A DNA stretch of 62,826 bases, taken from assembly GCA_031279825.1 (NCBI GenBank), contig JAITHT010000015.1, positions 1 through 62,826 of the forward strand. Direction: 5' to 3'. Origin of the DNA: Desulfovibrio sp. (GTDB taxonomy: Bacteria; Desulfobacterota; Desulfovibrionia; Desulfovibrionales; Desulfovibrionaceae). Under the pieces are notes generated by a model. That model was not told where the DNA came from, did not search any database, and saw only the letters and a list, made by a program, of their open reading frames with translations. The position numbers were made by a program, and so were the translations under genes. Of the stretch, positions 136-62,826 are shown one piece after another (the first letter of the stretch is position 1; each line of letters begins with the position of its first letter).

Positions 136-1068
136 TCACGGCAGAGTAACGGCAAGAACAAGCATCATCGTGCGCCTGTTGCCGGAACCAACGAAGGCCT
201 TTCTGAACGATGCCTGTCCCGCCGGGCTTTTCAGATCGCGACGGTTGGAAACAGCGCCCTTTCCTGTGGTTTGATACAGCCACGCTCTGCCGAGGCTATC
301 CACATGGATAAGCCCGACATGATAGTGTTGCAGTCCGTAGCCTTTGCGCCGCCCTTCCGTGTTCAGGCTGACCAGATACAGATAGCCGGCCTGGAGCCGC
401 CTGGGAAGCTCTTTCCATGTGGAATCCAGCGCAATGTCGTAGCCGCGGGGACTGAATCCGTCGGTTGTGTCCGGATCCATGAATCCGCCGCCGGGCAGTA
501 TCAAACGACGGGGAAGATTATCGGAGATGTTCATAATCAAATCCCAGCCGAAATCCCAGTCCTCTCCGCTCGGGGAGGCCGGGCCGCTGTCCCCCAGCCT
601 GTCTCGTACAGCATATGCCAGGGAAATGTTTTTTTGCAGCAAAAAACGGGAAGCGGCCAGCACAAGGCCGCTGCAATTGAGGCCGGGAGTCGGGAAAATA
701 CGCGCGGGGTCGGCAAAGGCGCTGTATCTGCCGAATTCGTCTATAGCGCCGTCAGCCCGATAAGGGATATTGAGAAAGAGCGGCAGAATCTGTTCCGGCA
801 CATATTCTTTGCCGACGCCGGCCACGAAATTTCGCGGAATGGGGATTACGTCGCGGGCAGAGGCGGCGGCACAACAAGAACCTGCCGGACAGGCGCAAAG
901 GACAATCAGGAAAACACATAGCGCATTTGCCCATAGGCAGTGCCGGGCTCCGTAAAAACATCGGCCGTACGAAATGAGCGATAGACCTCGGCGAGCTTCC
1001 CCGGCAAACGGCATTGCCGTCTTTCGGCAGTTGCGCGCGAGAGCGGCGGGAGTCGGGCGGCAGGTCAT
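136..1068 (-). CDS. Secreted or anchored protein with an NlpC/P60-like Cys/His arrangement
   Basis: This 310-residue protein has a hydrophobic stretch near residues 45-68 (ALCVFLIVLCACPAG) that looks like a signal or anchor, so the mature part is probably outside the inner membrane. A GLNCSGLV motif near residue 130 and a YHVGLI motif near residue 248 have the spacing and context of the Cys and His of NlpC/P60-like cysteine peptidases. It could also belong to the DUF1175/YfaT type of uncharacterised secreted proteins, but I cannot settle that by eye. The ATG at 1068 has a GAGAGG ribosome binding site, although the long N-terminal region before the hydrophobic stretch leaves a later start possible. 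The substrate is unknown. Confidence 0.6.
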   Translation of the reverse strand: MTCRPTPAALARNCRKTAMPFAGEARRGLSLISYGRCFYGARHCLWANALCVFLIVLCACPAGSCCAAASARDVIPIPRNFVAGVGKEYVPEQILPLFLNIPYRADGAIDEFGRYSAFADPARIFPTPGLNCSGLVLAASRFLLQKNISLAYAVRDRLGDSGPASPSGEDWDFGWDLIMNISDNLPRRLILPGGGFMDPDTTDGFSPRGYDIALDSTWKELPRRLQAGYLYLVSLNTEGRRKGYGLQHYHVGLIHVDSLGRAWLYQTTGKGAVSNRRDLKSPAGQASFRKAFVGSGNRRTMMLVLAVTLP

Positions 1069-1134
1069 AAAGCCTCTCTTATTCGATTTTCACGTACGCA
1101 TTACGTGCCGGCCATGAATGGGGTGAGCTATGGA

Positions 1135-1163
1135 TTGCCAAATAAGATACTGTATAGTATTCT
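1135..1163 (+). promoter_or_regulatory. Sigma70-type promoter for pgl
   Basis: TTGCCA (1135-1140) and TATTCT (1158-1163) are separated by exactly 17 bp. This would place the start of transcription near 1170 and leave a leader of about 120 nt before pgl. It is the best -35/-10 pair in the divergent space between the secreted-protein gene and pgl. Confidence 0.5.
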
Positions 1164-1293
1164 TCTGCTCTCTGTAAATCTCTGAGAAGTTTCCCGGCAA
1201 TCCGTCCGATACGCCCGGGAAGCCGGTTCCCTGAACATCCTGACCGTAAAGGCATCTTTTTGTAACCTTGAAGAGAACGAAGCAGGGTCTCCT

Positions 1294-2025
1294 ATGCCCA
1301 CAATGCATCTTTCCTTGTACGTAACCGCCGACGAAGAGGCCATGGCGCATGAAGCCGCTGCAATTATCCGCGATCAGTATTCCGAGGCAATAGCGAAACG
1401 GGGAGTGTTCACCATCGCCTTTTCCGGCGGCAGTACCCCTATACCCTTGTATCGCCTGTTATCCTCCCCGCAATGGGCTAAAACCCTGGATTGGAGTAAA
1501 GTTATCGTGTACTGGACGGATGAACGCTGTCTTGCGCCTGAAAATGAAGCAAGCAACTACCGTCTGGCGAGAACAGAGTTGCTTTCCCGGGTTGAGGCAA
1601 CCCGTTTTTATCGCATGAAAGGAGAAGATGCGCCTCAATCCGCCGCTGAAGCTTACGCCAAACTGCTGGCAGATCATTTCTGCCTGATTCCCGGCGAATT
1701 TCCCCGCTTTGACTGCATATTGCTGGGAGTGGGCACGGATGGGCATACCGCTTCTCTTTTTCCCGGCGATCCGGCGCTTATGGATACGGAGCATCTCGTA
1801 ACGGATGTGTATAACCCCAAACTGACAACAGCCCGCCTCACGCTGACGCTGCCGGTGTTAAACAATGCCCGTTGCTGTATTTTTCTGGCATCCGGCCGAA
1901 TAAAAAACGATGTGCTGTCAACCGCGCTTAACCTCATGGCGGCGCCCATACTACCGGCTCAAATGGTGCGCCCGCATAACGGGAAATTGTGCTGGGTAAT
2001 TGACAGCAACGCCTATCAAGGCTGA
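1294..2025 (+). CDS. pgl: 6-phosphogluconolactonase
   Basis: This 243-residue cytoplasmic enzyme hydrolyses 6-phosphogluconolactone to 6-phosphogluconate in the oxidative pentose phosphate pathway. Family motifs are clear: FSGGSTPIPLYRLL near residue 48, WTDERCLAP near residue 74, and GVGTDGHTASLFPG near residue 144. Length is normal for the family. ATG 1294 is used here; an in-frame ATG at 1303 is an alternative. No zwf or gnd is adjacent, but tkt and rpe of the same pathway lie about 21 kb away. A good sigma70 promoter lies upstream. Confidence 0.93.
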   Translation: MPTMHLSLYVTADEEAMAHEAAAIIRDQYSEAIAKRGVFTIAFSGGSTPIPLYRLLSSPQWAKTLDWSKVIVYWTDERCLAPENEASNYRLARTELLSRVEATRFYRMKGEDAPQSAAEAYAKLLADHFCLIPGEFPRFDCILLGVGTDGHTASLFPGDPALMDTEHLVTDVYNPKLTTARLTLTLPVLNNARCCIFLASGRIKNDVLSTALNLMAAPILPAQMVRPHNGKLCWVIDSNAYQG

Positions 2026-2208
2026 ATAGTTTGCCCCGGCGGCGCGTTTCCGAAAAAAAGTCCGGATAATGCGGGGCATAGTACGCAGCAGCGCCGTAGA
2101 GCATGTTTCGTTCAGGCAATAATGTTCTTTGTACTGTTTTTTTCTCACTCATAGCGAATATCACGTATGGTGTAGGGATTTTCAGCGCGGCTGCATCGGG
2201 GCCAGGAT

Positions 2209-4491
2209 ATGAAGAAATTTTCCCCGGGTTCCATAACAGGCTTGGTCACAGCCATTGTAGCGCTTGCGCTTACACCTTCTCTGGCGTTTATGATCTACTC
2301 CGGATACTCCGGCGCTCAGTCAAATATTGTCGAAGCGAAGGCGACAGCCCTGCGTTCCGTTAGGCATATAGCCCGTCAACAAGCGATCCTGGTGAACAGC
2401 GCGCGCGCCATGATGCTGACCTTGTCGAATCTTGCCGAGATTGAGAGCAAAAAGCCTGAAGAATGCGCTTTTTTGTTGCACGATCTTGCCTTGCGCGATC
2501 CCGTGTATACTGAAATTCGCCTGTGCGATCCGGAGGGCAATACTCTGGCGGCCTCCACGCCTGATGCTGCGGAACTTTCCGCCGAGATGCGCAATCATAT
2601 CCGCGTTGCCGCCGGCGGCAACGCCTTTACCCTCCATGCCTTGTCCCGGGATAACGACGACGCGCCGTCGCTTGCCTGCCTGTATCCTGTGCGCCGACAC
2701 GGGCAAACGACGAGCGTACTGCTGGCGTTGCTGCGTATTTCCGTGCCCGAGCCCGATCTCGCCATGTTACAGGCCAACCATGCAAGTTGTCTGCAAATTG
2801 CGGACAGGCGCGGAAGCCCCGTTTTTTCCCATGCCTTCACTGACTCCGATACTTCACCTGCCTGCGCACAAGGTGACGCGTGGGAGAAGCAGTCGTCATC
2901 CCCTCTCCGCCACGGGCTGCTGCAAAACAACAATGAACACTATGTCGCTTTTGAAAAATTGTTTCTGGAAGAAGAGGATACTCCCAGCCTGAGCGTCTCT
3001 TTGCTCATCCCCACGTCAATCGCCGCTTTCCGCATACGAGATCGGGTAATAACGAATTTTGCGCTGTTATCCGGAGCAATCTGTCTGGCTTTTGCCGTTA
3101 CCTGGAAGCTGTACGACATAGGCGTACGGACGCCGATAGGCAAAATGCTCACTGTTGCCGGCCTGATTAAGGAAGGCCTGCTCGGCGCGTCTTTCGCCAA
3201 AAATGACTTTATAGCTCAGGAACTCAATATCCTGGCTGATGCCTTAAACACGATGGTGCATTCCCTTGAGCAAAGGAATCGTGAGCTTATCGCCGCCAGA
3301 GATGAGGTCTCCGCCGCCGGCAGGATGAAAAGCGAGTTTCTCGCCAATTTGAGCCATGAAATCCGCACCCCCATGAACGCTATTCTGGGCATGTCCTACC
3401 TAGCTAAAAATAGTGAGTTGCAAGAAGAGCAGGTGCGTTACCTTGATGCTATTCAAGAGGAAGCGAACAAATTACTTGCGATGATCAACGATATTCTCGA
3501 TCTGTCAAAGATCGAAGCCGCTGCGGTGAGCATTGAAAACGTGCCGTTCAGCTTGTCGGAAGTGTTACACAAGGTTTTGCGGGAAGCCGAAGGCGAGTCT
3601 CAAAAAAAATCCGTCGTATTCTCCGTTTTTGGAGCGGAGACTGTGCCCGAATCCCTCCTTAACGGCGATCCGCTGCGTCTTTCCCATGTGCTTTCCACGC
3701 TGCTCACTCATGCCGTGACGCACAGCACACAGGTGATACTGCGCATAACTTGCTCCCCGGAAGAAAACGGGAGAGCGACGATAGTGATGCATTTTGCAAT
3801 AAACGTTCATGCCGGAGACGAAGAAGCGAACAAGGGATTTGCCAAATCCTTGAAAAATGGAATTATGGGCCTTCATGAGCAGAGGCAGGGATTGCATTTG
3901 GCGATTGCCCATAATGTGGTGAGTCTGATGCGCGGAAAACTGGAGATTCAAAACACCTCCGGCGTCGGCGTTCTAATCGCCATCCGCCTGCCGTTTTCCC
4001 GGGTGGAGACCAAAAGCCTCGCGCCGTCACGGAGAGAGGAGCCAAAAACAGACGATGCAGGTGATGCCATGCCGGCGGCTGATACAAATTTTTCAATGGA
4101 CATCAAAAATATTCGTGTCCTCCTGGTTGAGGATAATCGAATCAACCAGCAAATAATAAAAGAGGGTCTCACCAACGCCGGAGCATCCGTCCGGACTGCC
4201 TCCAACGGATTTGAAGCTCTGGCCCTGCTGGATGATACGTTTGGAGAAATACCGTATCATGTGGTGCTTATGGATTTACAGATGCCTGAACTTGACGGCG
4301 CCGCCACTACCCGGCGTCTGCGCATGAAGGAGCGTCTCAAAACCCTGCCGGTTATTGCTATGAGCGCGCATGATGTGTCCGGCGAATGGCGACAGTACCG
4401 GGAAGCGGGTATAAACGATTATGTCATCAAGCCCATCCATATGCCTAGCTTGATACACCTTATCGGCAAGTGGACGCGCTCGTCCGGCTAG
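2209..4491 (+). CDS. Hybrid histidine kinase with degenerate ATP-binding domain
   Basis: This 760-residue membrane protein has an N-terminal membrane segment (about residues 8-30), a periplasmic sensor region, a second membrane segment near 275-295, a linker, a HisKA domain with [14 protein letters not shown] (phospho-acceptor His at about residue 383) and a C-terminal receiver (LLVEDNRINQQ, phospho-acceptor Asp near residue 689 in VLMDLQMPELDG). Between them the HATPase region lacks the usual signatures. The N-box reads LLTHAVTHS, no DxGxG box is visible, and the G2 box is reduced to RQGLHLAIA. It may therefore be unable to bind ATP and could act as a phospho-acceptor or partner for the kinase encoded directly downstream, whose core sequence is similar. 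Start ATG 2209 is preceded by GGGGCCAGGAT. Confidence 0.85.
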   Translation: MKKFSPGSITGLVTAIVALALTPSLAFMIYSGYSGAQSNIVEAKATALRSVRHIARQQAILVNSARAMMLTLSNLAEIESKKPEECAFLLHDLALRDPVYTEIRLCDPEGNTLAASTPDAAELSAEMRNHIRVAAGGNAFTLHALSRDNDDAPSLACLYPVRRHGQTTSVLLALLRISVPEPDLAMLQANHASCLQIADRRGSPVFSHAFTDSDTSPACAQGDAWEKQSSSPLRHGLLQNNNEHYVAFEKLFLEEEDTPSLSVSLLIPTSIAAFRIRDRVITNFALLSGAICLAFAVTWKLYDIGVRTPIGKMLTVAGLIKEGLLGASFAKNDFIAQELNILADALNTMVHSLEQRNRELIAARDEVSAAGRMKSEFLANLSHEIRTPMNAILGMSYLAKNSELQEEQVRYLDAIQEEANKLLAMINDILDLSKIEAAAVSIENVPFSLSEVLHKVLREAEGESQKKSVVFSVFGAETVPESLLNGDPLRLSHVLSTLLTHAVTHSTQVILRITCSPEENGRATIVMHFAINVHAGDEEANKGFAKSLKNGIMGLHEQRQGLHLAIAHNVVSLMRGKLEIQNTSGVGVLIAIRLPFSRVETKSLAPSRREEPKTDDAGDAMPAADTNFSMDIKNIRVLLVEDNRINQQIIKEGLTNAGASVRTASNGFEALALLDDTFGEIPYHVVLMDLQMPELDGAATTRRLRMKERLKTLPVIAMSAHDVSGEWRQYREAGINDYVIKPIHMPSLIHLIGKWTRSSG

Positions 4492-4516
4492 AGCATTTTC
4501 AAAGTGAAAATGCTCT
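4490..4516. repeat. Minimal 27-bp palindromic repeat (family A)
   Basis: Perfect 12-bp arms (AGAGCATTTTCA and its complement) surround a 3-nt centre. The repeat begins inside the stop codon of the upstream kinase gene (TAG, 4489-4491). The same 27-bp unit or its variants recur across the window, and it matches the right end of the longer family A elements at 9938-10065 and 51819-51945. It could also fold in the mRNA between the two kinase genes. Confidence 0.85.
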
Positions 4517-4557
4517 GGGGTATTTTGCCTTGATAACCAATATAAAGGCATTGTTTT

Positions 4558-7500
4558 ATGATAAATTTTTTTTCAGGCCATATAACGCGCACGATGTGCG
4601 TCGTCCTGCTGCTGGCGTTTATCCCTTGCCTGCTCACTCTGTTCCGTTTTGAAGCCAAATACAGCGAAGAGGAGCAGGAGATTACGGAGAAACGCATCCA
4701 GGAAATCGTATACGGTATAAGCGCGCACCAGACAGCGGTTATGGAAAGCGCGCGCGGCCTTTTGTCCGCTCTGGCTTTAATGGATGATATCCGCAAGGGA
4801 GATCATGAGAGGACTCGAAAACTGTTTGCCGCAGTGCTTCGGGAAAATCCCTTATTGGAAGATATTTTGCTGACGGATCGGCTGGGGAGGGTAATCGCCT
4901 CCGGCCGAAGCCTGATCGAGGGGCAGGACCTCAACTCGCTGCCCGGCATGCGCGAAACCATGACCTCCCGGCAATTTTTTGTCAGCCGCCATGTACGCGG
5001 CTCCATCTCTGAACTGGCGGCCATGGATTGTTTCTATCCTATCGTGGACCATGCGGGTCTGCATGGAGTCCTCATCGGCGTTATCAATATCGGCGCAAGC
5101 ATTCAGACATTGAATATCCTTGATTTTTTACCCAAAGCGTCTCTGGTGATCGCCGATCCTTCGGGACAAATCATCTTTTCTCTGTCCAAGAGCAGCATCT
5201 ATACGAATGTGGCGACTCTGCCGGAGGAGGAACAGGAGATCATCCTCGCCGCAGAGCAAGATCTGCAAGCGGTGTCGCATCTCGACAAAGGGGGGGGGAC
5301 GATCGCTTTTTCGCTTTTGTCAAATTACGGCTTAACGTCGGCAATCAATGGTTTCTCACCTATATCGTAAGCCAGGACGCAACGACTGCCGACAGCGAGA
5401 TTAAAGATAAATGGCACAGCAGCATGCGGGAACTGCTCCTTTCGCTCGTTGCGGGATTTCTGGCTGCCATGGTAATTTCATTTTTAGTTTTACGCCGCCC
5501 GTTGCATATATTGCTTTCGGCGGTTCATCTTCTGAAAGAGGGACAATACAGCGCGCGCAGCAATCTCCCCGCCTCCGGAGAAATCGGCAAAGTAGCCGCA
5601 GGCTTCGATGCCATGGCTCAGGCCGTGGAAAACACGCACGCCGAACTTATGAAGGCGAAGTATGCCGCTGACGCCGCCAACCAGGCCAAAAGCGAATTTT
5701 TGGCCAATATGAGCCATGAGATCCGCACCCCCATGAACGCCATTATCGGCATGGCGTACCTGGCTCTGAAAACAGATCTCACGCCGCATCAGGAAACCTA
5801 TCTCAACAAAATTTATTTAGCCGCCAATACATTGTTGGGCATCATCAACGATATTCTGGATTTTTCTAAAATTGAGGCCGGCAAGCTGAACATTGAAAAC
5901 GCGCCTTTCTTTCTTGAAGAAGTATTTTCCAACATTACCACGCTCTTAGCGCAAAAAGCCGAAGAAAAGCACCTGGAACTGCTTTTTTCCTTTGCCCCTG
6001 ATGTGCCACGAAACCTTATGGGGGATCCGTTGCGTCTCGGCCAGGTGCTTACCAATCTTATCAGCAACGCTATAAAATTCACCCCTACCGGGGAAATAAC
6101 CGTATCTTGCGTCCTGCAAGAAGAAATGCACACATGGGAAGACGCCAAGGCTCGGCTTTATTTTACGGTGCGAGACACTGGTATAGGAATGACTGATGAG
6201 CAAAAAAGTAAGCTTTTTCGTCCATTTACACAGGCAGATAGCTCCACTACACGTCTGTACGGAGGAACAGGCCTTGGCCTTACCATTACAAAACGGCTCA
6301 TAGAAATGATGGACGGCGAGATCTCCATAGAAAGCGAATTACAGAAAGGCACGACAGTTTCTTTTACGGCCGTTTTTCAAATCAGCCCCCATAACGGGCA
6401 ATCGACAGATACGCTGTCTTTGAGCGGAACCAAGGTGTTGATTGTGGACGACAATGAAACGGCACGGACAGTTTTTCAAGAGATGCTGATCGGCTTTACC
6501 TTTGCCCCTACGGCGGTGAGTTCGGCCTTTGAAGCGTATGAGCAGTTGATGCTCGCCGATCAGGAACGCAAATCCTTCAAATTGGTGCTTCTTGACTGGC
6601 GTATGCCTGAAGTCTCGGGGATTGAAGCCGCGGAACATATCCAGCGAATGGATCTGAAGCGTCGACCGGCGATTATTCTGGTCACTGCCTTCGGGAACAG
6701 CGAGTTGCAAAACAAAGCCGAACAGATAGGCATCCAACATGTCCTCTACAAACCCATCAATCCTTCTCAGTTGTTTAATGCCATGCTTGAAGCGATACAC
6801 ACCGGAGAAAAACTTCCTTTCAGCTCTCAAAACGGTATGGTCGCCAAAGCCCCTCAACAGTTTACCGGTATAAAAGTCCTCCTTGTGGAGGACAATGTCA
6901 TCAATCAGCAGGTGGCGATGGAAATTCTCAATCATGAAGGGGTCCATGTGGAAACAGCGGACAACGGGCAAGATGCCGTGAATATCCTTATGGATAGACC
7001 ATACGATTTTCATCTCGTGTTCATGGATCTGCAGATGCCGGTAATGGACGGCTATTCCGCCACCCGTCTCCTGCGCGATAATGAAAAACTCGTTAATCTG
7101 CCGATAATTGCCATGACCGCGCATGCCATGAGCGGTGAGCGTGACGCCTGTATTGCCGCCGGAATGAATGATCATCTTACCAAGCCCATAGAGGTGGAAA
7201 AGCTCTTTCAGATGCTCAGGCGCTGGACGAGCATAAATAACGATAGCCTTTCAAGGCATGACGCCTCTCAAGCGACGAATGAAGATATGGCCGACCCCGG
7301 GCAAAGTCGCGCCGCTTGCACAGCACAGCCCGATCTTACGGACGCGTCGTCGGGAGATCCCATTGCCGCGCCTTCTGCGGGACAAAGCGCGCAGTCCCCA
7401 TCGCCAGTCGGGCAGGAATCCGGCAATAGCGGGCAGCATCCCGATCTTCCCCCGCTTCCGGGCGTAGACAGCGTCGCTGCCGTGGCCCGCCTTGGCGGGA

Positions 7501-8045
7501 ATGTCCGTTTGTATACAAAAACCTTGTGCATGTTTGTCAAAAGCGCGCCTTCCCACGAACAGGAGCTTGATGCCGCCTTTGCGCAGGCGGACAAACAGCG
7601 GCTGTGTCGGGCGGCGCATACCCTTAAAGGATTGGGAGCCACTGTGGGCGCCTCGGCTTTGGCATCTCTGGCCGCAGGCATGGAGTCGGACATTAACCAT
7701 ACGGATTCTCTGCCGGACTCGGTTGCAGTGGAGGAACTCAAAAAGGCTATGGGGAATCTGAGATACATCATCGCTACCTCAGGGCTTTGCGGGCAGGAGA
7801 CAGTCCCTGCTCTCTCTCCAGGCTCTCCCGGCGGCGATGAAGAACGGGAAAAATTTAAGGAAATAGCGGCTGTCCTGACAGAACTGCTTGAATCCGACGA
7901 TGCCGGAGCGCCGGAATACGCCGCCGGGAATGCGATCGTCCTCGCCGCTGTTTTGCCGGCCGAGGCGCTGACCTCTCTCACAGAGAGTTTGCGTCTGTTT
8001 GATTATGATACAGCCTTGCGCATAATGAAAGACGCGCAGCAATAG
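4558..8045 (+). CDS. Large hybrid histidine kinase, frame-interrupted at a G9 tract
   Basis: The first frame (4558-5370) carries a membrane segment and a Cache-like periplasmic domain, and stops soon after a run of nine G at 5290-5298. Past the run, the other frame (open from before 5300 to 8045) continues the same protein: a second membrane segment ([20 protein letters not shown]), a HAMP-like linker, His[16 protein letters not shown] (His codon 5715-5717), an intact HATPase ([23 protein letters not shown]), two receivers (Asp codons 6595-6597 and 7026-7028) and an HPt domain (AAHTLKGLG, His codon 7617-7619). A tract of seven or ten G would restore one frame of about 1,160 codons. The break is a phase-variable tract, an inactivating mutation or a base-calling error. 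All domains are BarA-like, and with its neighbour this makes a tandem kinase locus. Confidence 0.85.
5290..5298. repeat. Homopolymeric G9 tract at the kinase frameshift
   Basis: Nine consecutive G sit at the exact place where the coding frame of the downstream hybrid kinase changes. Slippage by one base (to ten) or two bases (to seven) would rejoin the frames. Confidence 0.9.
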
Positions 8046-8058
8046 CCGGAGGATGCCT

Positions 8059-9828
8059 GTGTCCCGGACGCGACATTCGATCCTTGTCAAGCTTATGGGC
8101 AAAGAGAGCTTCGACGGAACGGACGCCGCGCTTGCCTCTCCTGTAGAGTATCAAGCCGGGCAAACTCTGGCGCAGGCAATTTATTTATCAGGCCTTTACG
8201 CGCCGCCCGCCTTATGCTCCGGCTTGGCCGCCTGCGGTCGTTGCCGCGTACGCGTGACAAGCGAGCCCGGGCCGGAGCCGGAGCCGGCGGATATGCGATT
8301 GTTTGCCCCTGACGAGCTTGCCCTTGGCTGGCGTTTGGCGTGTAAACATCACGCTTGGCCGGGCATGTGCATCGAACTCCCCGTCGAAACGCGTCTTTTT
8401 GCCGACCTTCTGAGAGAAAGCGGCAAGAAAAGCGCGGCAGACCTTGCCGTTTTACCCGATGCCGCGTCTGATCCCGGCGACACTACCGACAGCGTCTCTT
8501 TTTACCCTCCCACCGCTGGCGATCCCTTGCGGTCAACCAACGGGAAAACAGCTTTTCTGGCCGTCGATCTTGGGACAACCTCCCTGGAGTGGCGCCTTCA
8601 GGCCAATCTTCCTCAAGGGCCTTGCACCCTTTGGCAAGGGAAAGCCGTTAACCCGCAAATGGGCGCGGGCAGCGATCTTGTCTCCCGGCTGTCTTTTGCC
8701 GCCACAGACGCCGGGAGAGAACTGCTGTACCGGCTCACGCAGGATGCCCTGCGGGGTCTCGTAGAGCAAAGCGCGCTTGTGATGCGAGCCAAGGGACTGT
8801 CCGGCGGTCCCTCCGCCCTGTGTCTGGCCGCCAACACCGCCATGACGGCCATCTCCCTGGGGGTGGATACGCGAAGCCTGGCAAACGCTCCTTATGCCGT
8901 GCCTTACGCCGGAGGCCAATGGGAGGCTCTGCCGGGTCTGCCGCCCCTCCTGACGCCGCCGCAACCCTCTCCTTTCGTGGGGGGAGATATCGCCGCCGGA
9001 TACGCGGCACTGGCCCTTGACAGAGAGTTCCCTATTCCGGAATATCCTTTTTTATTGGCGGATCTCGGCACCAACGGGGAATTTCTGCTGGCGCTTGCCC
9101 CGGATAACAGTCTGGCGACCAGCGTGGCTCTGGGGCCAGCGCTTGAAGGCATCGGCCTCAGCCACGGGATCGACGCCCAACCGGGAGCTGTATCGAATTT
9201 CTCCTTCAGCCCCTATGGACTTGAAGCCATCTGCGTAAAGCATTCGGCATCACAACGGGCCACGCCATCTTCCGTGCCGGGGATAACGGCCACAGGATAC
9301 CTGGAATTGCTGCATATACTCCTTACAAGCGGCGCCATGGACCGCCAAGGATATTTTACCCCCGACGCCTGTGGCGCTTTGAAACGCTTTTTCACTCCGA
9401 AGAGAGCCCTTGGAACGGAAGAAGCCCGAAACGGAGCATGGCTTCCCCTCCCCCTGGGTTTGCGCCTCAGCGCGCGGGATATTGAAGAAGTGCTTAAAGT
9501 CAAAGCGGCTTTCAGCCTTGGCCTGCGCCGCCTTCTGGACAAGGCCGGGCTCGCGTCGCGAGATTTGAAGCGCGTCTATATCGCCGGTGCCCTTGGTCTC
9601 CATGTAAATAAACGGGCGCTTGAAGAATTGGGGTTCTTCCCTCCGGGTATGGAAAAACGGCTTGAAGCTGTGGGCAACACGTCTCTGGCCGGTGCCTCCC
9701 TGCTCCTGCGTACTCCTCAGGCTCGCCCCTCACTGCTCCGGTGGGCGGAAAAGGTCCATACGCTTGACTTGGCTGCCGACTCTGCGTTTACGCACGACTT
9801 TGCCGAACACATGCGTTTTGTCTGGTGA
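8059..9828 (+). CDS. RACo-like ferredoxin/ASKHA protein (corrinoid activation protein)
   Basis: About 589 residues. The N-terminal part carries a [2Fe-2S] ferredoxin pattern (CSGLAACGRC near residue 53 and a later Cys in RLACKHHA). The rest is an ASKHA-type ATPase domain with AVDLGTTSLEW near residue 170 and LLADLGTNGEF near residue 335, as in the DUF4445 family. Characterised relatives (RACo) use ATP and reduced [2Fe-2S] to return inactive Co(II) corrinoid proteins to Co(I) in methyl-transfer pathways. No corrinoid protein or methyltransferase is adjacent, so the target is inferred. An ATG at 8053 abuts the GGAGG, while GTG at 8059 leaves a normal 6-nt gap, so GTG 8059 is chosen. It starts 13 bp after the kinase stop codon and may be co-transcribed. 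Confidence 0.8.
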   Translation: MSRTRHSILVKLMGKESFDGTDAALASPVEYQAGQTLAQAIYLSGLYAPPALCSGLAACGRCRVRVTSEPGPEPEPADMRLFAPDELALGWRLACKHHAWPGMCIELPVETRLFADLLRESGKKSAADLAVLPDAASDPGDTTDSVSFYPPTAGDPLRSTNGKTAFLAVDLGTTSLEWRLQANLPQGPCTLWQGKAVNPQMGAGSDLVSRLSFAATDAGRELLYRLTQDALRGLVEQSALVMRAKGLSGGPSALCLAANTAMTAISLGVDTRSLANAPYAVPYAGGQWEALPGLPPLLTPPQPSPFVGGDIAAGYAALALDREFPIPEYPFLLADLGTNGEFLLALAPDNSLATSVALGPALEGIGLSHGIDAQPGAVSNFSFSPYGLEAICVKHSASQRATPSSVPGITATGYLELLHILLTSGAMDRQGYFTPDACGALKRFFTPKRALGTEEARNGAWLPLPLGLRLSARDIEEVLKVKAAFSLGLRRLLDKAGLASRDLKRVYIAGALGLHVNKRALEELGFFPPGMEKRLEAVGNTSLAGASLLLRTPQARPSLLRWAEKVHTLDLAADSAFTHDFAEHMRFVW

Positions 9829-9839
9829 CTCTGATAAAA

Positions 9840-9936
9840 ATCGCGGCAACGCCCGCGAGATTGGCGCAGGCCGGGTCTCGAAGGCCGTTAAACGGCAATC
9901 TCATAGCGAAACAGCTCCAGCAACGGGAGCCTCGCC
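9840..9936 (+). repeat. Repeat family B, copy 1
   Basis: Shares about 75 well-conserved bases with 12025-12110 in the same orientation: GCGGCAACGCCCGCGAGATT, then GGCCGTTAAACG and CAATCTCATAG. It directly abuts the full-length family A element at 9938. No coding frame is apparent. Confidence 0.75.
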
Positions 9937-9937
9937 T

Positions 9938-10065
9938 AGAGCAGATTAACTTTGAAACGTTGCACTCGTCGCCCTCGGCGAAAACAGGTTTCGCCTACTC
10001 CTTGTGCACGAGAGCCAGCGCTTACGCTGCCGGTTGACAGAGGATTTTCAAAGTGAAAATGCTCT
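9938..10065 (+). repeat. Full-length family A element, copy left of the acyl-CoA ligase
   Basis: About 128 bp with imperfect inverted ends: AGAGCAGATTAACTTTGAAA at the left, matched by the complement of the right end (AGAGCATTTTCACTTTGAAA). It contains an inner palindrome AGCGCTTACGCTGC. It has no coding capacity and looks like a MITE. The copy at 11866-11992 is in the opposite orientation on the other side of the ligase gene, and 51819-51945 is a third full copy. Confidence 0.8.
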
Positions 10066-10075
10066 AACTGACGGT

Positions 10076-11773
10076 TCACTCGCTCCTTACCCCTTCTCCC
10101 TTTTCTCTCTCCGAGTCGGGAAAAAGTTCCAGAGCCATCTCCCGTAATTTGAACTTCTGGATTTTTCCGCTGCCGGTCATGGGGTAGCTGTCCACAAAAA
10201 CCATATGACGCGGCACCTTGTGCCACGCCAGCCGCCCCTTGCAATAAGCGCGCACATCTTCCGCCCGCAGGCTTGCACCTTCTTTGGGGATGATGAAGGC
10301 CACCACTTCTTCGCCATATTTGCGGTTGGGTACGCTGACGACCTGAACATCCATAACCTGGTCCATACCGGAGATGAATTCTTCAATTTCACGGGGGTAA
10401 ATGTTTTCTCCCCCCCGGATAATCATGTCTTTGATGCGTCCGGTAATAACCAGATACCCCGCTTCATCCATGATGCCCATATCTCCGGAACGCAGCCAAC
10501 CATCGGGAGTAACGGCTGCCGCGGTTTCTCCCGGCAATTTGTAATAGCCTTCCATGACGTTGTATCCCTTGCAAATGACTTCGCCAGGGATTCCGTAAGG
10601 CATCTCCCTCAACTGGTCGGGCAGAGCCTGCGGGTCGGCTACAAGCACCGTTATACCGGGCATGGCTCTACCCACGCTGCTGATGCGGCGTTCGAAATCT
10701 TCATCCGCATGCGTCTGGGTCATGACGGGAGAGGCTTCCGTCATCCCGTAGCAGATGGTGATTTCCCGCATGTGCATCTCTTCCACCACTCGGCGCATCA
10801 GAGGAGCGGGGCATACGGATCCGGCCATTATGCCCGTGCGCAAACTGCTAAGATCGTAGCGCGAAAAATGGCGATGCTCCAGCATGGACAAAAACATGGA
10901 AGGCACGCCATACACTCCCGTGCAGCGCTCTTTTTCAATGGCGTCCATGACGTGCAGGGGATTGAACGCTTCGACGATCACCATGGTTGCGCCGTGATTG
11001 ACCGCGGCCATAACTCCCAGCACACAACCGAAACAATGGAATAAGGGCACGGGCAGGCATATCCTGTCGTTGGACGAAAAATTTTGGTGTCTTCCAATCC
11101 AGTAGCCGTTATTGACGATATTCACATGAGAAAGCATGACCCCTTTGGGAAAGCCGGTTGTCCCCGAAGTATACTGCATATTTATCACGTCATACGGTTT
11201 AATGTCGGCCTTTCTGGCCGCATAGTCAGCCGGAGATGTGTTCTGCGCTAGAGCCGTGACGTCGGACAGACAACGCAGCCCTCTTTTGCTTTTGTCTCCC
11301 ATGAGGAAAATCCGGCGCAGTTCGGGCAGTTGGGGAATATTCAAGCTGTCCGAAGGTTGTTCGCCGATTTGTGGAACAGCGGTTTTGAGAATCTTGATGA
11401 AATCGTGGTCACGGTAACTATCCAACATAAAAAGATTTTCACAATCACTCTGACGAAGGAGAAATTCAAGTTCGCGAGCGTGGTAACTCGTATTTACCGT
11501 GATAAGGATGGCGCCTATACGCGCGCCGGCGAACATCAAAGTTAGCCAGTGCGGAACATTGGTAGCCCATATGGCTATTTTTTCTCCCTTTTGCACTCCG
11601 AGGGCCATAAGTCCCCTTGCGAGATCGTCCACGCTTTTGCCGAATTCCAGCCAGCTTTGGCGCAAGGGGCGTTCATGGTGGATAACGGCGTCATTGTCGG
11701 AGTGCCGGCAAATGGTTTCATCCAAAAGCGCGCCTAAGGTTTTTTCCTGCAACACAAAGGGGTCAATTTGCAT
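10076..11773 (-). CDS. AMP-forming acyl-CoA synthetase (fatty-acid or carboxylic-acid CoA ligase)
   Basis: This 565-residue cytoplasmic enzyme activates a carboxylic acid with ATP to an acyl-AMP and transfers it to CoA. The adenylation P-loop YTSGTTGFPKGVMLSH is near residue 200, the ICYGMTEASP core near residue 340, the GWLRSGDMG hinge region near residue 430, and the C-terminal GSGKIQKFKLRE lysine motif near residue 540. Length and motifs match medium- to long-chain acyl-CoA ligases. The substrate cannot be read from the sequence. The start ATG is at 11773. The gene is alone between inverted family A repeats and direct family B repeats, and has no co-directional neighbour. Confidence 0.88.
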   Translation of the reverse strand: MQIDPFVLQEKTLGALLDETICRHSDNDAVIHHERPLRQSWLEFGKSVDDLARGLMALGVQKGEKIAIWATNVPHWLTLMFAGARIGAILITVNTSYHARELEFLLRQSDCENLFMLDSYRDHDFIKILKTAVPQIGEQPSDSLNIPQLPELRRIFLMGDKSKRGLRCLSDVTALAQNTSPADYAARKADIKPYDVINMQYTSGTTGFPKGVMLSHVNIVNNGYWIGRHQNFSSNDRICLPVPLFHCFGCVLGVMAAVNHGATMVIVEAFNPLHVMDAIEKERCTGVYGVPSMFLSMLEHRHFSRYDLSSLRTGIMAGSVCPAPLMRRVVEEMHMREITICYGMTEASPVMTQTHADEDFERRISSVGRAMPGITVLVADPQALPDQLREMPYGIPGEVICKGYNVMEGYYKLPGETAAAVTPDGWLRSGDMGIMDEAGYLVITGRIKDMIIRGGENIYPREIEEFISGMDQVMDVQVVSVPNRKYGEEVVAFIIPKEGASLRAEDVRAYCKGRLAWHKVPRHMVFVDSYPMTGSGKIQKFKLREMALELFPDSEREKGEGVRSE

Positions 11774-58926: not shown

Positions 58927-59002
58927 GGGCGGTTAGCTCAGTTGGTAGAGCATCGGCCTTACAAGCCGGGGGCCACAGGTTCGACCCCTGTACCGCCCAC
59001 CA
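58927..59002 (+). tRNA. tRNA-Val (TAC)
   Basis: 76 nt with encoded CCA. Acceptor GGGCGGT/ACCGCCC, anticodon loop CTTACAA with TAC, and T loop TTCGACC. The 3' end is 58 bp from the inserted element's target duplication. Confidence 0.95.
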
Positions 59003-59045: not shown

Positions 59046-59068
59046 CTTATCCGGGCATTAAATTCGAA

Positions 59069-59098
59069 CGCTCTGTTATACAAACAAGTATACAGACG
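59069..59098 (+). repeat. Left terminal inverted repeat of the IS1595-type element
   Basis: Begins CGCTCTGTTATACAAACAAG. Its inverted partner at 62179-62208 has T for one C. Confidence 0.92.
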
Positions 59099-59197
59099 TA
59101 AATTTAATATGTAACAAATTCAATATATTATGAAATATAAATAATTTCAAATAGTTATCTAACAGATCGAATCTCACCCAAGCTCCCTTAATCATAT

Positions 59198-60260
59198 TTA
59201 CAAATAGTTTCCAGAAATTTTATATGCAGCAAAATACCCATTACCACCTGCAACTGAACTATCTGAAGCCCCTACAACACCACCAGCAACATTTATTGTC
59301 CCATTGTTTATATATTCTTTTTGATAGAAAATATTCACCACACCACCTCCCGAAGCACCACCAGCAGCACCATAACTAGTTCCTGCTTGACCATTAGTAC
59401 CTTGAGAAACAATAGAACCATTATTTATAATTGACTTAGCAATAATTATTAGTAATCCTCCTGTCCCTGTATTTCCTAATACTGAACTATTACCAAATCC
59501 TCTATTCTGTCCACCTTTACCACCTAGATTCCCTGTACCTCCTGCTGATCTAGAAGAACCTGAATTTCCACCGTCAGCAGTACCCCTTCCTCCAGCACCA
59601 CCATTTACTTCACCTCGAACATCTTGTTGTCAACCTGCTTCATTAGATTCCAACATAATACCACCAGTACCACTTCCTCCTGAAAAACTTGTACCATTTC
59701 CAGCAATTCTATTTGTATATGTTCTTCCTGATGCAGACCTAGTTTGACCTCCCAAACCTCCTGATCCACAACATTTATAACCAGAACCATTTCTTATTGT
59801 ATTTGCTGTTAGTGTTCCAGTCGTATTTCCTATTCAATGAAAGAAATCTTTGAATCTGTTCTCAACATCATATCTTATATTTAAATTAGTTCAATTAGTA
59901 TCAATAGTTACAAACCTTCCTTCAGCATTAGCACCTCTTGCAGTCATTGAAATAGTACCATTATTCGTCAATGTTCCATTAATGAACATATATAAACCTT
60001 TACAACGATTAGTTGAAGTGATTGTTGTTCCTGCTTTAACTTCGTAATCACCATTTACAAAGAAAAATAGCATCACCGTCTTCTATAGAAGATAATGATG
60101 TTTTATTAGAATATTCTTTTATATGATAAAGATATTTGTCTAAAATTGTTTTTTTTTGTTCAACAAAATTGAATTGTCTTTCTGAATTTGTACAAATAAT
60201 ATGTTTCTCAAATTCTGTTTGAGAGTTAATTGAGAAATTTTTATATGCTGTATATTTCAT
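59198..60260 (-). pseudogene. Glycine-rich cargo protein, frameshifted, with three in-frame TGA
   Basis: From ATG 60260 the frame reads MKYTAYKNFSINSQTEFEKH and reaches SIEDGDAIFL. There a 1-bp shift in a T run (60062-60067) moves into VNGDYEVKAGTTITSTNRC and GLYMFINGTLTNNGTISMTARG. This frame then continues, rich in Gly/Asn (FSGGSGTGGIMLESNEAG, GAGGRGTADGG), to TAA at 59198-59200. It contains three TGA codons (59891-59893, 59834-59836, 59630-59632) and no TAA or TAG in about 290 codons. The type resembles phage tail or surface proteins with Gly-rich repeats. Either the gene is decaying or its donor read TGA as an amino acid. Confidence 0.65.
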
Positions 60261-60327
60261 ATCTACTATTTATTTGATACAAAAAAGCGCTTATCAAAGC
60301 GCTTTACAAATAATATTGTCATAATTT

Positions 60328-60954
60328 TTATTCTACTATAAATGAAGCAATTCTACCATCAAATCCAGTCTTAGCACGTTCAATATATAATTTATGATCA
60401 TTTTCATTATTACCATGAAGATGTTTTTCGTAATCAACTTCTAGCAAAATAGCATTTGAATTAAAAACAAGATTTGATGTTTGAGAAGCAATTACAGATA
60501 GTTCAGTATCAGCAAAATGTGACTTATATTGATGATGAAATATGAATTTTCCATATATTGTATTTACCCATTGTCTATCTGCTAATCCGAAAACTGCTAT
60601 CTTTCCAAAAAATCTACCATCATTGAAAGCAAGTAAACCACATCTTGATTTCCTTATAGTCTCTAAAGCATAATCTAACCAAAATTCACCTGCAAAAGCA
60701 TCTTGTGCTGTATATACAAAATATCTCGATTCAGTCTTAGCATATACAAGATTTGTAACCATAATAAATCCAAATCTCATATCGTCTTCAATCAATAACA
60801 ATAATCCGTTTTGTTTTGTTCTCCTTTTCATTACTTCACTTGCTTTCATCGCTAATTCAACATCAACCATAGACATTGAAATTATCACCTCATACGAAGA
60901 TGATAATTGAAACTTTTGCAACATCGACGATTTAATAACTTTGATGTCTAACAT
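60328..60954 (-). CDS. Phage-like cargo protein, possible glycosyltransferase-related
   Basis: 208 residues, intact, ending TAA. LLLLIEDDMRFGFIMVTN near residue 52, YFVYTAQDAFAGEFWLDYAL near residue 78, LLAFNDGRFFGKIAVFGL and HHQYKSHFADTELSVIA near residue 140 recall phage-borne GT-A-fold glycosyltransferase-like proteins. I cannot prove that family by eye, so treat the function as a guess. The start ATG follows the transposase end within a TAATAAATG sequence, so both genes are likely on one transcript. Trp codons are TGG. Confidence 0.5.
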   Translation of the reverse strand: MLDIKVIKSSMLQKFQLSSSYEVIISMSMVDVELAMKASEVMKRRTKQNGLLLLIEDDMRFGFIMVTNLVYAKTESRYFVYTAQDAFAGEFWLDYALETIRKSRCGLLAFNDGRFFGKIAVFGLADRQWVNTIYGKFIFHHQYKSHFADTELSVIASQTSNLVFNSNAILLEVDYEKHLHGNNENDHKLYIERAKTGFDGRIASFIVE

Positions 60955-60957
60955 TTA

Positions 60958-62015
60958 TTACGCTGCTTCCTCATACATAACTTGTCTCGAACACACATCT
61001 TTATATAACGTATGTCCTACATTTTGCAACCCTCGACACCATACCTTATCAATCATAAATGACTCACTATTCTGTGAACTATTCTCATTTATCACATTGT
61101 TCCATATCAAATAATTATTCAAATGTTTCGTACTCACTCCATTGAAGTTATCTATAAACTTCTTGAGTCGAGTATGATAACTATTGATATGATTTATATG
61201 ATAAATTCCCTTCTTCGACTTAAACTCTTCAAGTCTAATGTGTTCGAGTTTATTAGACTTTGCAAATTTCAAATATGACTTCTCTTTGTCAGTACAAATA
61301 ACTGACTTTTCTTTGATTTTATTATTCAAAACAGACTTAATAGTCTTGATACTTGTTTTACCTAGTCCACCTATTTTTGAAATAGATTTTTTGTTATCAC
61401 GTTCAATACCACACACTACACAAACTTGTTCAGTTGAAAGTCCACGTTTATGAACTTCACCACCACGTCTACGAGATTTACGTTCTATATTTCTGCTTCC
61501 TTTATATGAAACTCGAAAGAAAGTTTCATCTGCTTCTACGATACCAGACAATTCAGTTTTATCAGACAATCTCAAAGCATCAAGTATTTTATGTCTCCAC
61601 ATAAATGCAGTACGAATGCTTATGTGACATTCACTAGCAGATTTTCTGATGCTATACTTACGAACCATACACTGAATATACTTTTTCCAAGTATCAAGAT
61701 TTTTCTTTGTGAATGAGAGAAATGTATCCGTTGTTGAAGTAAAAATTTTTGAACAATTTTTACAACGATAACGTTGTTTACCATTTACACCTTTACTTGC
61801 TTTGACAATATTCGTAGTACATCCACATCTTGTGCAGAAGAGTCCATTGCTAAATCTTGCTTCTTTGATATCAATAACAGATTTATTATTAGTTAGAATT
61901 TCTGAAAGTAGAATTTTTTGTTCTTCTAATTCAGAATTTTTCTTTTGTTTTAGAATTGATAAGAGTGTAAATTTTTGTTCTTGTGAAAGAGAAGAGATAA
62001 ATTCTCGACGTTCAT
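60958..62015 (-). CDS. IS1595-family transposase, frameshifted near the start
   Basis: An N-terminal zinc ribbon (FCTRCGCTTN, then RYRCKNCSKIF) is followed by an ISXO2-like DDE core: ELSGIVEADETFFRVSYKG, SVICTDKEKSYLKF and the HINSYHTRLKKFIDNFNGVS block with LNNYLIWNN. The frame containing both the zinc ribbon and the core has no start codon. An ATG at 62015 with GGAG 7 nt upstream is in the neighbouring frame, and one inserted base within the first codons would join them (352 codons). The break could be a real mutation or a read error. An internal ATG at 61668 gives only the core (236 residues) without the zinc ribbon. Confidence 0.85.
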
Positions 62016-62178
62016 AATACTTCTCCGTTTGTTAAGAGAAATATATCTTGTAACTCAAGAGATGTACATAAATAATTGATAGAAATCAAGTAAAAAAGAC
62101 AAATAATAATAATAATAACTGTTTGAAATTATTTATTATTGATTAACATATTGATTTTATTTGATTAAATTTTTCGTC

Positions 62179-62208
62179 CGTCTGTATACTTATTTGTATA
62201 ACAGAGCG
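62179..62208 (-). repeat. Right terminal inverted repeat of the IS1595-type element
   Basis: Inverted copy of 59069-59098 with a single mismatch; flanked on the outside by the target duplication AATTCGAA. Confidence 0.92.
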
Positions 62209-62231
62209 AATTCGAATAAATTTGATTTTTT

Positions 62232-62666
62232 GTCACCCTTCATGTATCGGAGCGCAGAACCAAACGCGATTAGGCTTTACGGATTCGGGAACTGCTTGAA
62301 GTACATTACCCAAATGTGTCTAAAGTACGGCTTGTCATGGATAATTTGAATACTCACGCTGTTTCGTCACTTTATGAAACCTTTGCTCCCGATATTGCGC
62401 TGAACTTGGCCAAACGATTGGAAATACACTTCACACCTAAACACGGAAGTTGGCTCAACATAGCAGAAATCGAATTGAGCGCCATGACAAAACAATGCCT
62501 TGGCAGACGCACTGCAACGATAAAGGAACTTCAAACGCAAGTTTCGGCTTGGGAAAGCGAACGCAACGCTGACATGAAATCAGTCGATTGGCAGTTTTCA
62601 ACGGATAATGCCAAGATCAAATTGAAATGGCTCTATCCTACAAATATAACTTTGTCAATGCACTAG
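62232..62666 (+). pseudogene. IS630-type transposase, 3' part only
   Basis: The frame reads VTLHVSERRTKRD, a TAG stop (62271-62273), then RIRELLEVHYPNVSKVRLVM, DNLNTHAVSSL, HFTPKHGSWLNIAEIELSAM and ends at 62666. This is the C-terminal DDE_3 half with the middle Asp (MDNLNTH) and last Glu (WLNIAEIE). The TAG stands where relatives have Trp, so a TGG to TAG change is likely. The N-terminal half is missing. Downstream a second IS630 copy starts. Confidence 0.85.
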
Positions 62667-62719
62667 TGTTGCGTCCTTGAAATAAATACATATAATAGAC
62701 TCCAGAGAAGGAGTTTGTT

Positions 62720-62826
62720 ATGCGGCCATGTATCCGAGTTGCATTGAGCGAAGAGCAGGGATCCACTCTGAAAATGTGGGCAAACTCAGGAAAAACAGAA
62801 CAGCGCCCCGTTCTTCGTGCAAAGCT
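62720..62826 (+). CDS. IS630-type transposase, 5' end (partial)
   Basis: ATG 62720 has AAGGAG at the right distance. The frame MRPCIRVALSEEQGSTLKMW and the following ANSGKTEQRPVLRAK is the N-terminal HTH start of IS630-family transposases. It runs off the window end. Whether it belongs to the same IS type as the remnant just upstream cannot be tested here. Confidence 0.75.
   Translation, partial: MRPCIRVALSEEQGSTLKMWANSGKTEQRPVLRAK

Follow-up and report, generated by a model that had tools for sequence, protein, structure and literature searches.

A tail-fibre-like gene carried by an IS1595-family transposon in a standard-code Desulfovibrio chromosome contains three in-frame TGA codons but neither TAA nor TAG in its main frame, and purifying selection on the protein is seen downstream of the one TGA codon that all three covering copies share. 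This gene (cargo B) may have evolved under a code in which UGA specifies tryptophan, the likeliest setting being TGA-recoded phages of standard-code hosts; we give this reading about an even chance. Of all features of the element, these TGA codons with their signs of selection are of greatest interest; an earlier, sequence-only reading of the same DNA did not mention them.

Architecture, relatives and target site of the element

The window (the whole stretch of DNA analysed, 62,826 nt) is an entire contig of a draft assembly (94 contigs, 2.23 Mb, 83% complete), and also encodes a multihaem class III cytochrome, a gene that suggests a sulfate reducer of Desulfovibrionaceae type as host. An IS1595-family unit was confirmed at 59069 to 62208, consisting of inverted ends, a transposase frame and two cargo frames and flanked by a target duplication. 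The unit and its surroundings comprise the following features.

58927 to 59002, + strand: tRNA-Val gene (TAC), 66 bp before the element
59061 to 59068: left copy of the 8-bp target duplication AATTCGAA, perfect
59069 to 59158, + strand: left terminal inverted repeat, with a 30-nt core at 59069-59098 and weaker gapped homology to 59158
59198 to 60082, - strand: cargo B main frame, glycine-rich, phage tail-fibre-like as judged from homologues and context, with three in-frame TGA codons
60048 to 60260, - strand: N-terminal piece of cargo B in a different frame from the main part, with a homologous piece in genome G113
60328 to 60954, - strand: cargo A, 208 aa, GT2-like glycosyltransferase family as judged from family relatives; Trp codons 2 TGG, 0 TGA
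60958 to 62031, - strand: IS1595-family transposase frame, 357 aa (NF033547, PF12762); Trp codons 4 TGG, 0 TGA
62115 to 62208, - strand: right terminal inverted repeat, with a 30-nt core at 62179-62208 and weaker gapped homology back to 62115
62209 to 62216: right copy of the 8-bp target duplication AATTCGAA, perfect
62316 to 62666, + strand: IS630-family transposase fragment (profile match), in the right flank outside the element

The 30-nt ends are inverted and identical at 29 of 30 positions, and in gapped form their homology extends to about 90-95 nt (80% in one alignment). As rough estimates, ends matching this well would arise by chance at about 6e-15 per placement and the duplication at about 2e-5. 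An 8-bp target duplication and terminal inverted repeats are characteristic of the IS1595 family, and the element has both. The sequence-only reading had described inverted ends with one mismatch, a perfect 8-bp duplication, an adjoining tRNA-Val gene and AT-richness relative to the host, and all four were borne out, the last by a G+C content of 30.9% in the element against 55.9% in window positions 1-58900. Its description of a complete unit holds for the ends, the duplication and the frames; it does not hold for the transposase, whose frame lacks a usual start before 61668, nor for cargo B, which is split over two frames. On the right (62209-62826), beyond the IS630 fragment, repeat DNA lies at the contig end, with 10 matches in the own genome including itself.

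The transposase scored well above the cut-offs of both the NCBIfam IS1595 profile NF033547 (E 2e-57, 194.5 bits, cut-off 75) and PF12762 (E 1.2e-14, 55 bits, cut-off 27), in line with the earlier identification of an IS1595-type transposon with two non-transposase genes. Four cysteines of an N-terminal zinc ribbon (C66, C69, C90 and C93) are invariant in seven aligned transposases, with NF050000 matching at 32 bits against a cut-off of 28 and PF12760 staying under its cut-off. D168, D248, N283 and K290 are likewise invariant and are presumably the DDE/N-type catalytic residues, going by the IS1595 signature. ATG, GTG and TTG are all absent from the window frame before 61668, and the frame is probably broken or shifted near its start. 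The relative in G105, a genome of the same genus, is 83% identical to the window copy in DNA over 708 aligned columns, and its transposase begins with an in-frame ATG, so the window copy is probably not autonomous. The break itself may be an assembly error. With its transposase and cargo B frames both broken, the window copy looks inactive. A 66-aa transposase remnant, 64% identical, lies on another contig of the own genome (C21). Ends like those of the element were found around none of the eight related transposases examined; inverted matches near two related transposases (L097 and L174) covered 51 and 38 columns.

Element DNA was matched in 4 of 15 genomes of the genus, namely the own genome (G000), G105, G113 and G108, and five further genomes of the family, from two genera, contain related pieces (G105, G113, G108, G173 and G184). 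Among 149 family genomes, 4 have the end pattern at one mismatch or less; one of them is G173, from another genus, where ends stand at two contig starts with different flanks. In G105 an end and the transposase lie at one contig end, and an end and cargo B at a different one; as the two flanks agree at only 7 of 8 positions, these could be different copies. Between the end and the transposase gene, the G105 relative also has a stretch of about 330 nt (L220 4022-4350) that is absent from the window copy; inspection by eye shows in it a short frame that starts with ATG and includes a TGA, as well as an inverted repeat. In G113 one end is accompanied by a degraded cargo B, after which other DNA begins, and at a second place an end stands with a transposase fragment containing TAG. 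G108 (L223 3139-3268) harbours a mini-element of 130 bp whose ends resemble those of the window element and which is flanked by a perfect 8-bp duplication, ATATTCAT. A remnant in G184, which belongs to the genus of G173, aligns to window positions 60323-61002; it comprises the final 45 nt of the transposase frame and cargo A in frame-broken form, against which cargo A of the window has a dN/dS of 0.13. The single distant donor that had been suggested for the element is not supported, since related pieces sharing its ends lie both within the genus and in a second genus of the family.

G111, a genome of the same genus with no match to the element, contains GAATAAATTTGAT about 100 bp past its tRNA-Val gene. 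This is identical to window positions 62214-62226, which lie beyond the other end of the element. Shuffling the 411 nt that follow the G111 tRNA 20000 times reproduced it once, and it is absent from three other tRNA neighbourhoods of the genus. An empty site in a related strain had been named beforehand as a check, and G111 appears to provide an approximate one, the DNA between the tRNA and GAATAAATTTGAT being diverged and the insertion point inexact. When the left flank was compared with 59 genomes, the own included, the matches of the others centred on the tRNA and, among the matches listed, reached at most about 50 bp past it.

The two cargo genes

Cargo A lies directly downstream of the transposase gene and is followed by cargo B. 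Relatives of cargo A were found in 14 of 199 family genomes (own included), at identities of 84 to 40% plus one at 22%. PF00535 was matched at E up to 1 by 8 of 14 aligned members (best 9.4e-4) and PHROG glycosyltransferases by a few, the window protein matching neither; a profile of the family had no match in the PDB up to E 1, and a single-sequence structure model reached a mean pLDDT of 34.7. A glycosyltransferase identity had been raised earlier as a possibility; a glycosyltransferase-2-like one is suggested by this family membership rather than proven, and the protein may change surface sugars. In four genomes (G045, G118, G111 and G094) the family sits among genes that by eye are of host type, at 59-62% G+C, and a phage-only origin of cargo A was dropped on these grounds. 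The label "phage-like" given to the cargo in the sequence-only reading thus suits cargo B, and not clearly cargo A, whose family is chromosomal in G+C-rich members of the host family. As single-protein queries, the transposase and cargo A found nothing in viral_contigs. Cargo A also found nothing in phages or plasmids, and was absent from seven named genomes with related transposases in a search run without a positive control. At the end of contig C60 of the own genome (L252 6270-6355), a second, short cargo A-like 5' piece stands beside an apparent other mobile element.

Cargo B, frame-broken in both G000 and G113, has no Pfam or PHROG match itself. Its homologues occur in 12 of 199 family genomes (own included) and in phage contigs, where one is L177 and where, out of 105 candidate stretches, 9 loci on 8 contigs were confirmed. 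In both contexts that were profiled (G230 and G260) the homologue adjoins a tail-collar fibre gene (PF12571); on its other side, the G230 gene has weak tail-fibre or fibre-assembly matches and the G260 gene matches phage families of unknown function. The phage homologue L180 has an F5/8 type C domain and tail-protein matches. These neighbours and homologues make a tail-fibre tip or adhesin, which would act in receptor binding, the best reading of cargo B. Used as queries in phages, neither cargo B nor the L177 protein found anything, and none of 114 candidate stretches was confirmed as a close donor of cargo B; the end pattern of the element was absent from viral_contigs. L178 was rejected as a chance motif match.

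In-frame TGA codons and where they could be read

All three copies that cover positions 59834-59836 (G000, G105 and G113) have TGA there, where the phage homologue L186 has W and L177 has Y. At 59891-59893 both relatives (G105 and G113) have F. At 59630-59632 the aligned residues are Y in G105, W in L177 and, within a low-complexity stretch of L186, P, with a gap in G113. A first guess of code 25, in which TGA encodes glycine, was dropped on account of these residues (W, Y, F, F, Y, W and one P). The natural reading of TGA in cargo B would instead be tryptophan, given tryptophan or other aromatic residues at these few sites and selection downstream of the shared one.

Downstream of the shared TGA, dN/dS between G000 and G105 is 0.30 (bootstrap 0.20-0.46, 210 codons); the shifted frames give 0.88 and 2.01. 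Between G000 and G113 it is 0.31 overall, 0.40 downstream (0.21-0.65, 106 codons) and 0.19 upstream. The low downstream values show that the protein past the TGA was under selection after the copies had split. The divergence of the three copies over this part is considerable (dS 0.61-1.16), and the main frames remain without TAA or TAG, although 91 different single changes in G105 and 116 in G000 would each create a stop. Tryptophan codons are also unevenly divided within the element, with 3 TGA and 0 TGG in cargo B against 0 TGA and 6 TGG in the transposase and cargo A together (Fisher one-sided 0.012). The aligned Trp positions of the transposase and cargo A in G105 and G184 are TGG, and the one TGG of G113 cargo B stands in its degraded end. 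This evidence comprises three sites, three partial copies and pairwise rates, with sequence taken from assemblies.

The host itself apparently does not read UGA as tryptophan. TGA ends 11 of the 36 long ORFs of the window, and the tRNA-Trp anticodon is CCA, with five paired anticodon-stem positions, in all 12 genes scanned (from 12 of 15 genus genomes), so that a UCA anticodon, which would decode UGA, was found in none of them. Host-wide recoding was dropped on these two counts, and a recoded phage becomes the likelier setting in which cargo B was selected. The own tRNA-Trp (L263 1501-1576) has a G.U top pair in its anticodon stem, as have those of G109 and G106; in the nine remaining genes of this comparison, G-C or C-G occupies the position.

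According to PMC10746230, some code-4 phages encode a UGA-Trp suppressor tRNA together with a Trp-tRNA synthetase, and in-frame TGA codons may restrain the production of late proteins. L031, an IMG/VR contig on which phage genes were recognised (IMGVR_UViG_3300029305_005136, 195-10550), carries an IS1595 transposase that is 50% identical to that of the window and has 3 TGG and 0 TGA. The genes around it, one of which encodes a tail-collar protein, have 5, 2, 2, 3 and 4 TGA and 2, 1, 0, 2 and 1 TGG, and the DNA polymerase has 7 TGG and 0 TGA; in some genes of this contig TGA appears to serve as a Trp codon. Neither a suppressor tRNA nor any other tRNA was found in the stretch examined, in which a Thg1-like gene was named by eye. 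Phage stretches with cargo B homologues gave no clear sign of TGA recoding (open-frame coverage gain at most 0.05, equalled by TAG), and cargo B homologues in family genomes outside the host genus have no TGA and no in-frame stop.

These observations can be put together as follows. Working on the long inverted ends, the transposase would create 8-bp duplications; being TGG-only, it and cargo A would be readable under either code. Cargo B would have been shaped where UGA means tryptophan, most likely in recoded phages of standard-code hosts, and in the chromosomes seen here it could not normally be read and would be decaying. A more far-reaching proposal, which we hold to be unlikely as a whole, is that the transposon family is at home mainly in TGA-recoded phages. 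Its TGG-only transposase would then function under both codes and shuttle a late-code tail-fibre gene for host recognition and a sugar-transferase gene back and forth between phages and chromosomes of standard code, in which the UGA codons of the tail gene would silence it.

Cargo B could, with rather low probability, be an ordinary pseudogene in which TGG mutated to TGA in standard-code hosts, its low dN/dS dating from before the decay. TGA is a single step from TGG, the cargo B of G000 and G113 and the window transposase are frame-broken in any case, and the homologues outside the genus have no in-frame stop. Decay of this kind would nevertheless require separate loss at one site in three copies. 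It sits poorly with the same TGA in copies so far diverged in dS, with selection downstream since the split, and with the main frames being free of TAA and TAG despite the many single changes that would create them.

Readthrough in the bacterium, by which a normal tRNA-Trp inserts tryptophan at UGA at a low level and gives a little full-length cargo B, appears quite improbable. PMC7918605 reports prokaryotic in-frame stops with dN/dS below 1, which are commonest in the mobilome category, and describes TGA as leaky; the G000 tRNA-Trp has the weak G.U top pair. The window copy, however, combines three TGA in one frame with a frame break, the CCA anticodon and five paired stem positions hold in 12 of 12 genes, and G105 and G113 are without the G.U pair.

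That the donor was a cell lineage using code 4, and not a phage, is very improbable. It would leave the same marks in the sequence, low G+C included, but 0 TGA among the 6 Trp codons of the transposase and cargo A would be unexpected after long residence in a code-4 genome of low G+C, cargo B resembles a tail-fibre protein, and no such lineage could be recognised by name among the best 80 of 556 relatives in genome_contigs. An assembly chimera, a worry of the sequence-only reading that is now much weakened, would suit an incomplete draft in many contigs with a strong G+C contrast, judged from the assembly alone; it is scarcely credible, because the duplication is perfect at both junctions, related pieces lie in five other genomes and G111 has an approximate empty site. 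The last two findings also make a one-off import unlikely.

Relation to known systems

If the preferred reading of cargo B as a gene selected in recoded phages is right, TGA-recoded phages of this bacterial genus are to be expected, and the element offers a compact example, open to test, of genes that pass from one genetic code to another by transposon. It would also suggest a rule, by which the transposase avoids the recoded codon and the cargo need not, so that an element can cross between codes while part of its cargo works under one only. A tail-fibre-like gene marked by another genetic code within a standard-code chromosome deserves notice in this respect. Literature listings showed nothing on tail-fibre cargo with IS1595, on tail-fibre genes as transposon passengers or on transposases in connection with alternative codes.

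The element is an IS1595-family member, and its combination of cargo was not seen elsewhere in the searches made. Among known relatives are the IS1595 transposases ISSag10 and ISCco2 (named as in plasmid annotation), each 42% identical to that of the window, and a Helicobacter plasmid transposase at 44%. In the plasmid records lnu(C) starts about 24 bp after the ISSag10 transposase gene, and genes for an AAA ATPase and an aminoglycoside phosphotransferase follow that of ISCco2; these genes are candidate cargo. Cargo in itself thus appears not to be unusual for IS1595 elements, since lnu(C) adjoins the transposase gene of ISSag10, and the earlier view of the cargo as unusual is not supported. 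The difference lies in its nature: resistance genes at ISSag10 and ISCco2, and in the window one gene that is GT2-like and another that is tail-fibre-like and contains TGA in frame.

The tail-fibre loci of G230 and G260 resemble cargo B in context, a homologue adjoining a PF12571 gene in each, but these homologues have no in-frame stop and a G+C content of 58-59%. TGA-recoded (code 4) phages likewise have in-frame TGA in a tail-type gene and TGG in other genes, as L031 does around its IS1595 transposase. No phage carrying cargo B itself was found, and what sets the window gene apart from those of code-4 phages is that it travels as transposon cargo in a standard-code chromosome.
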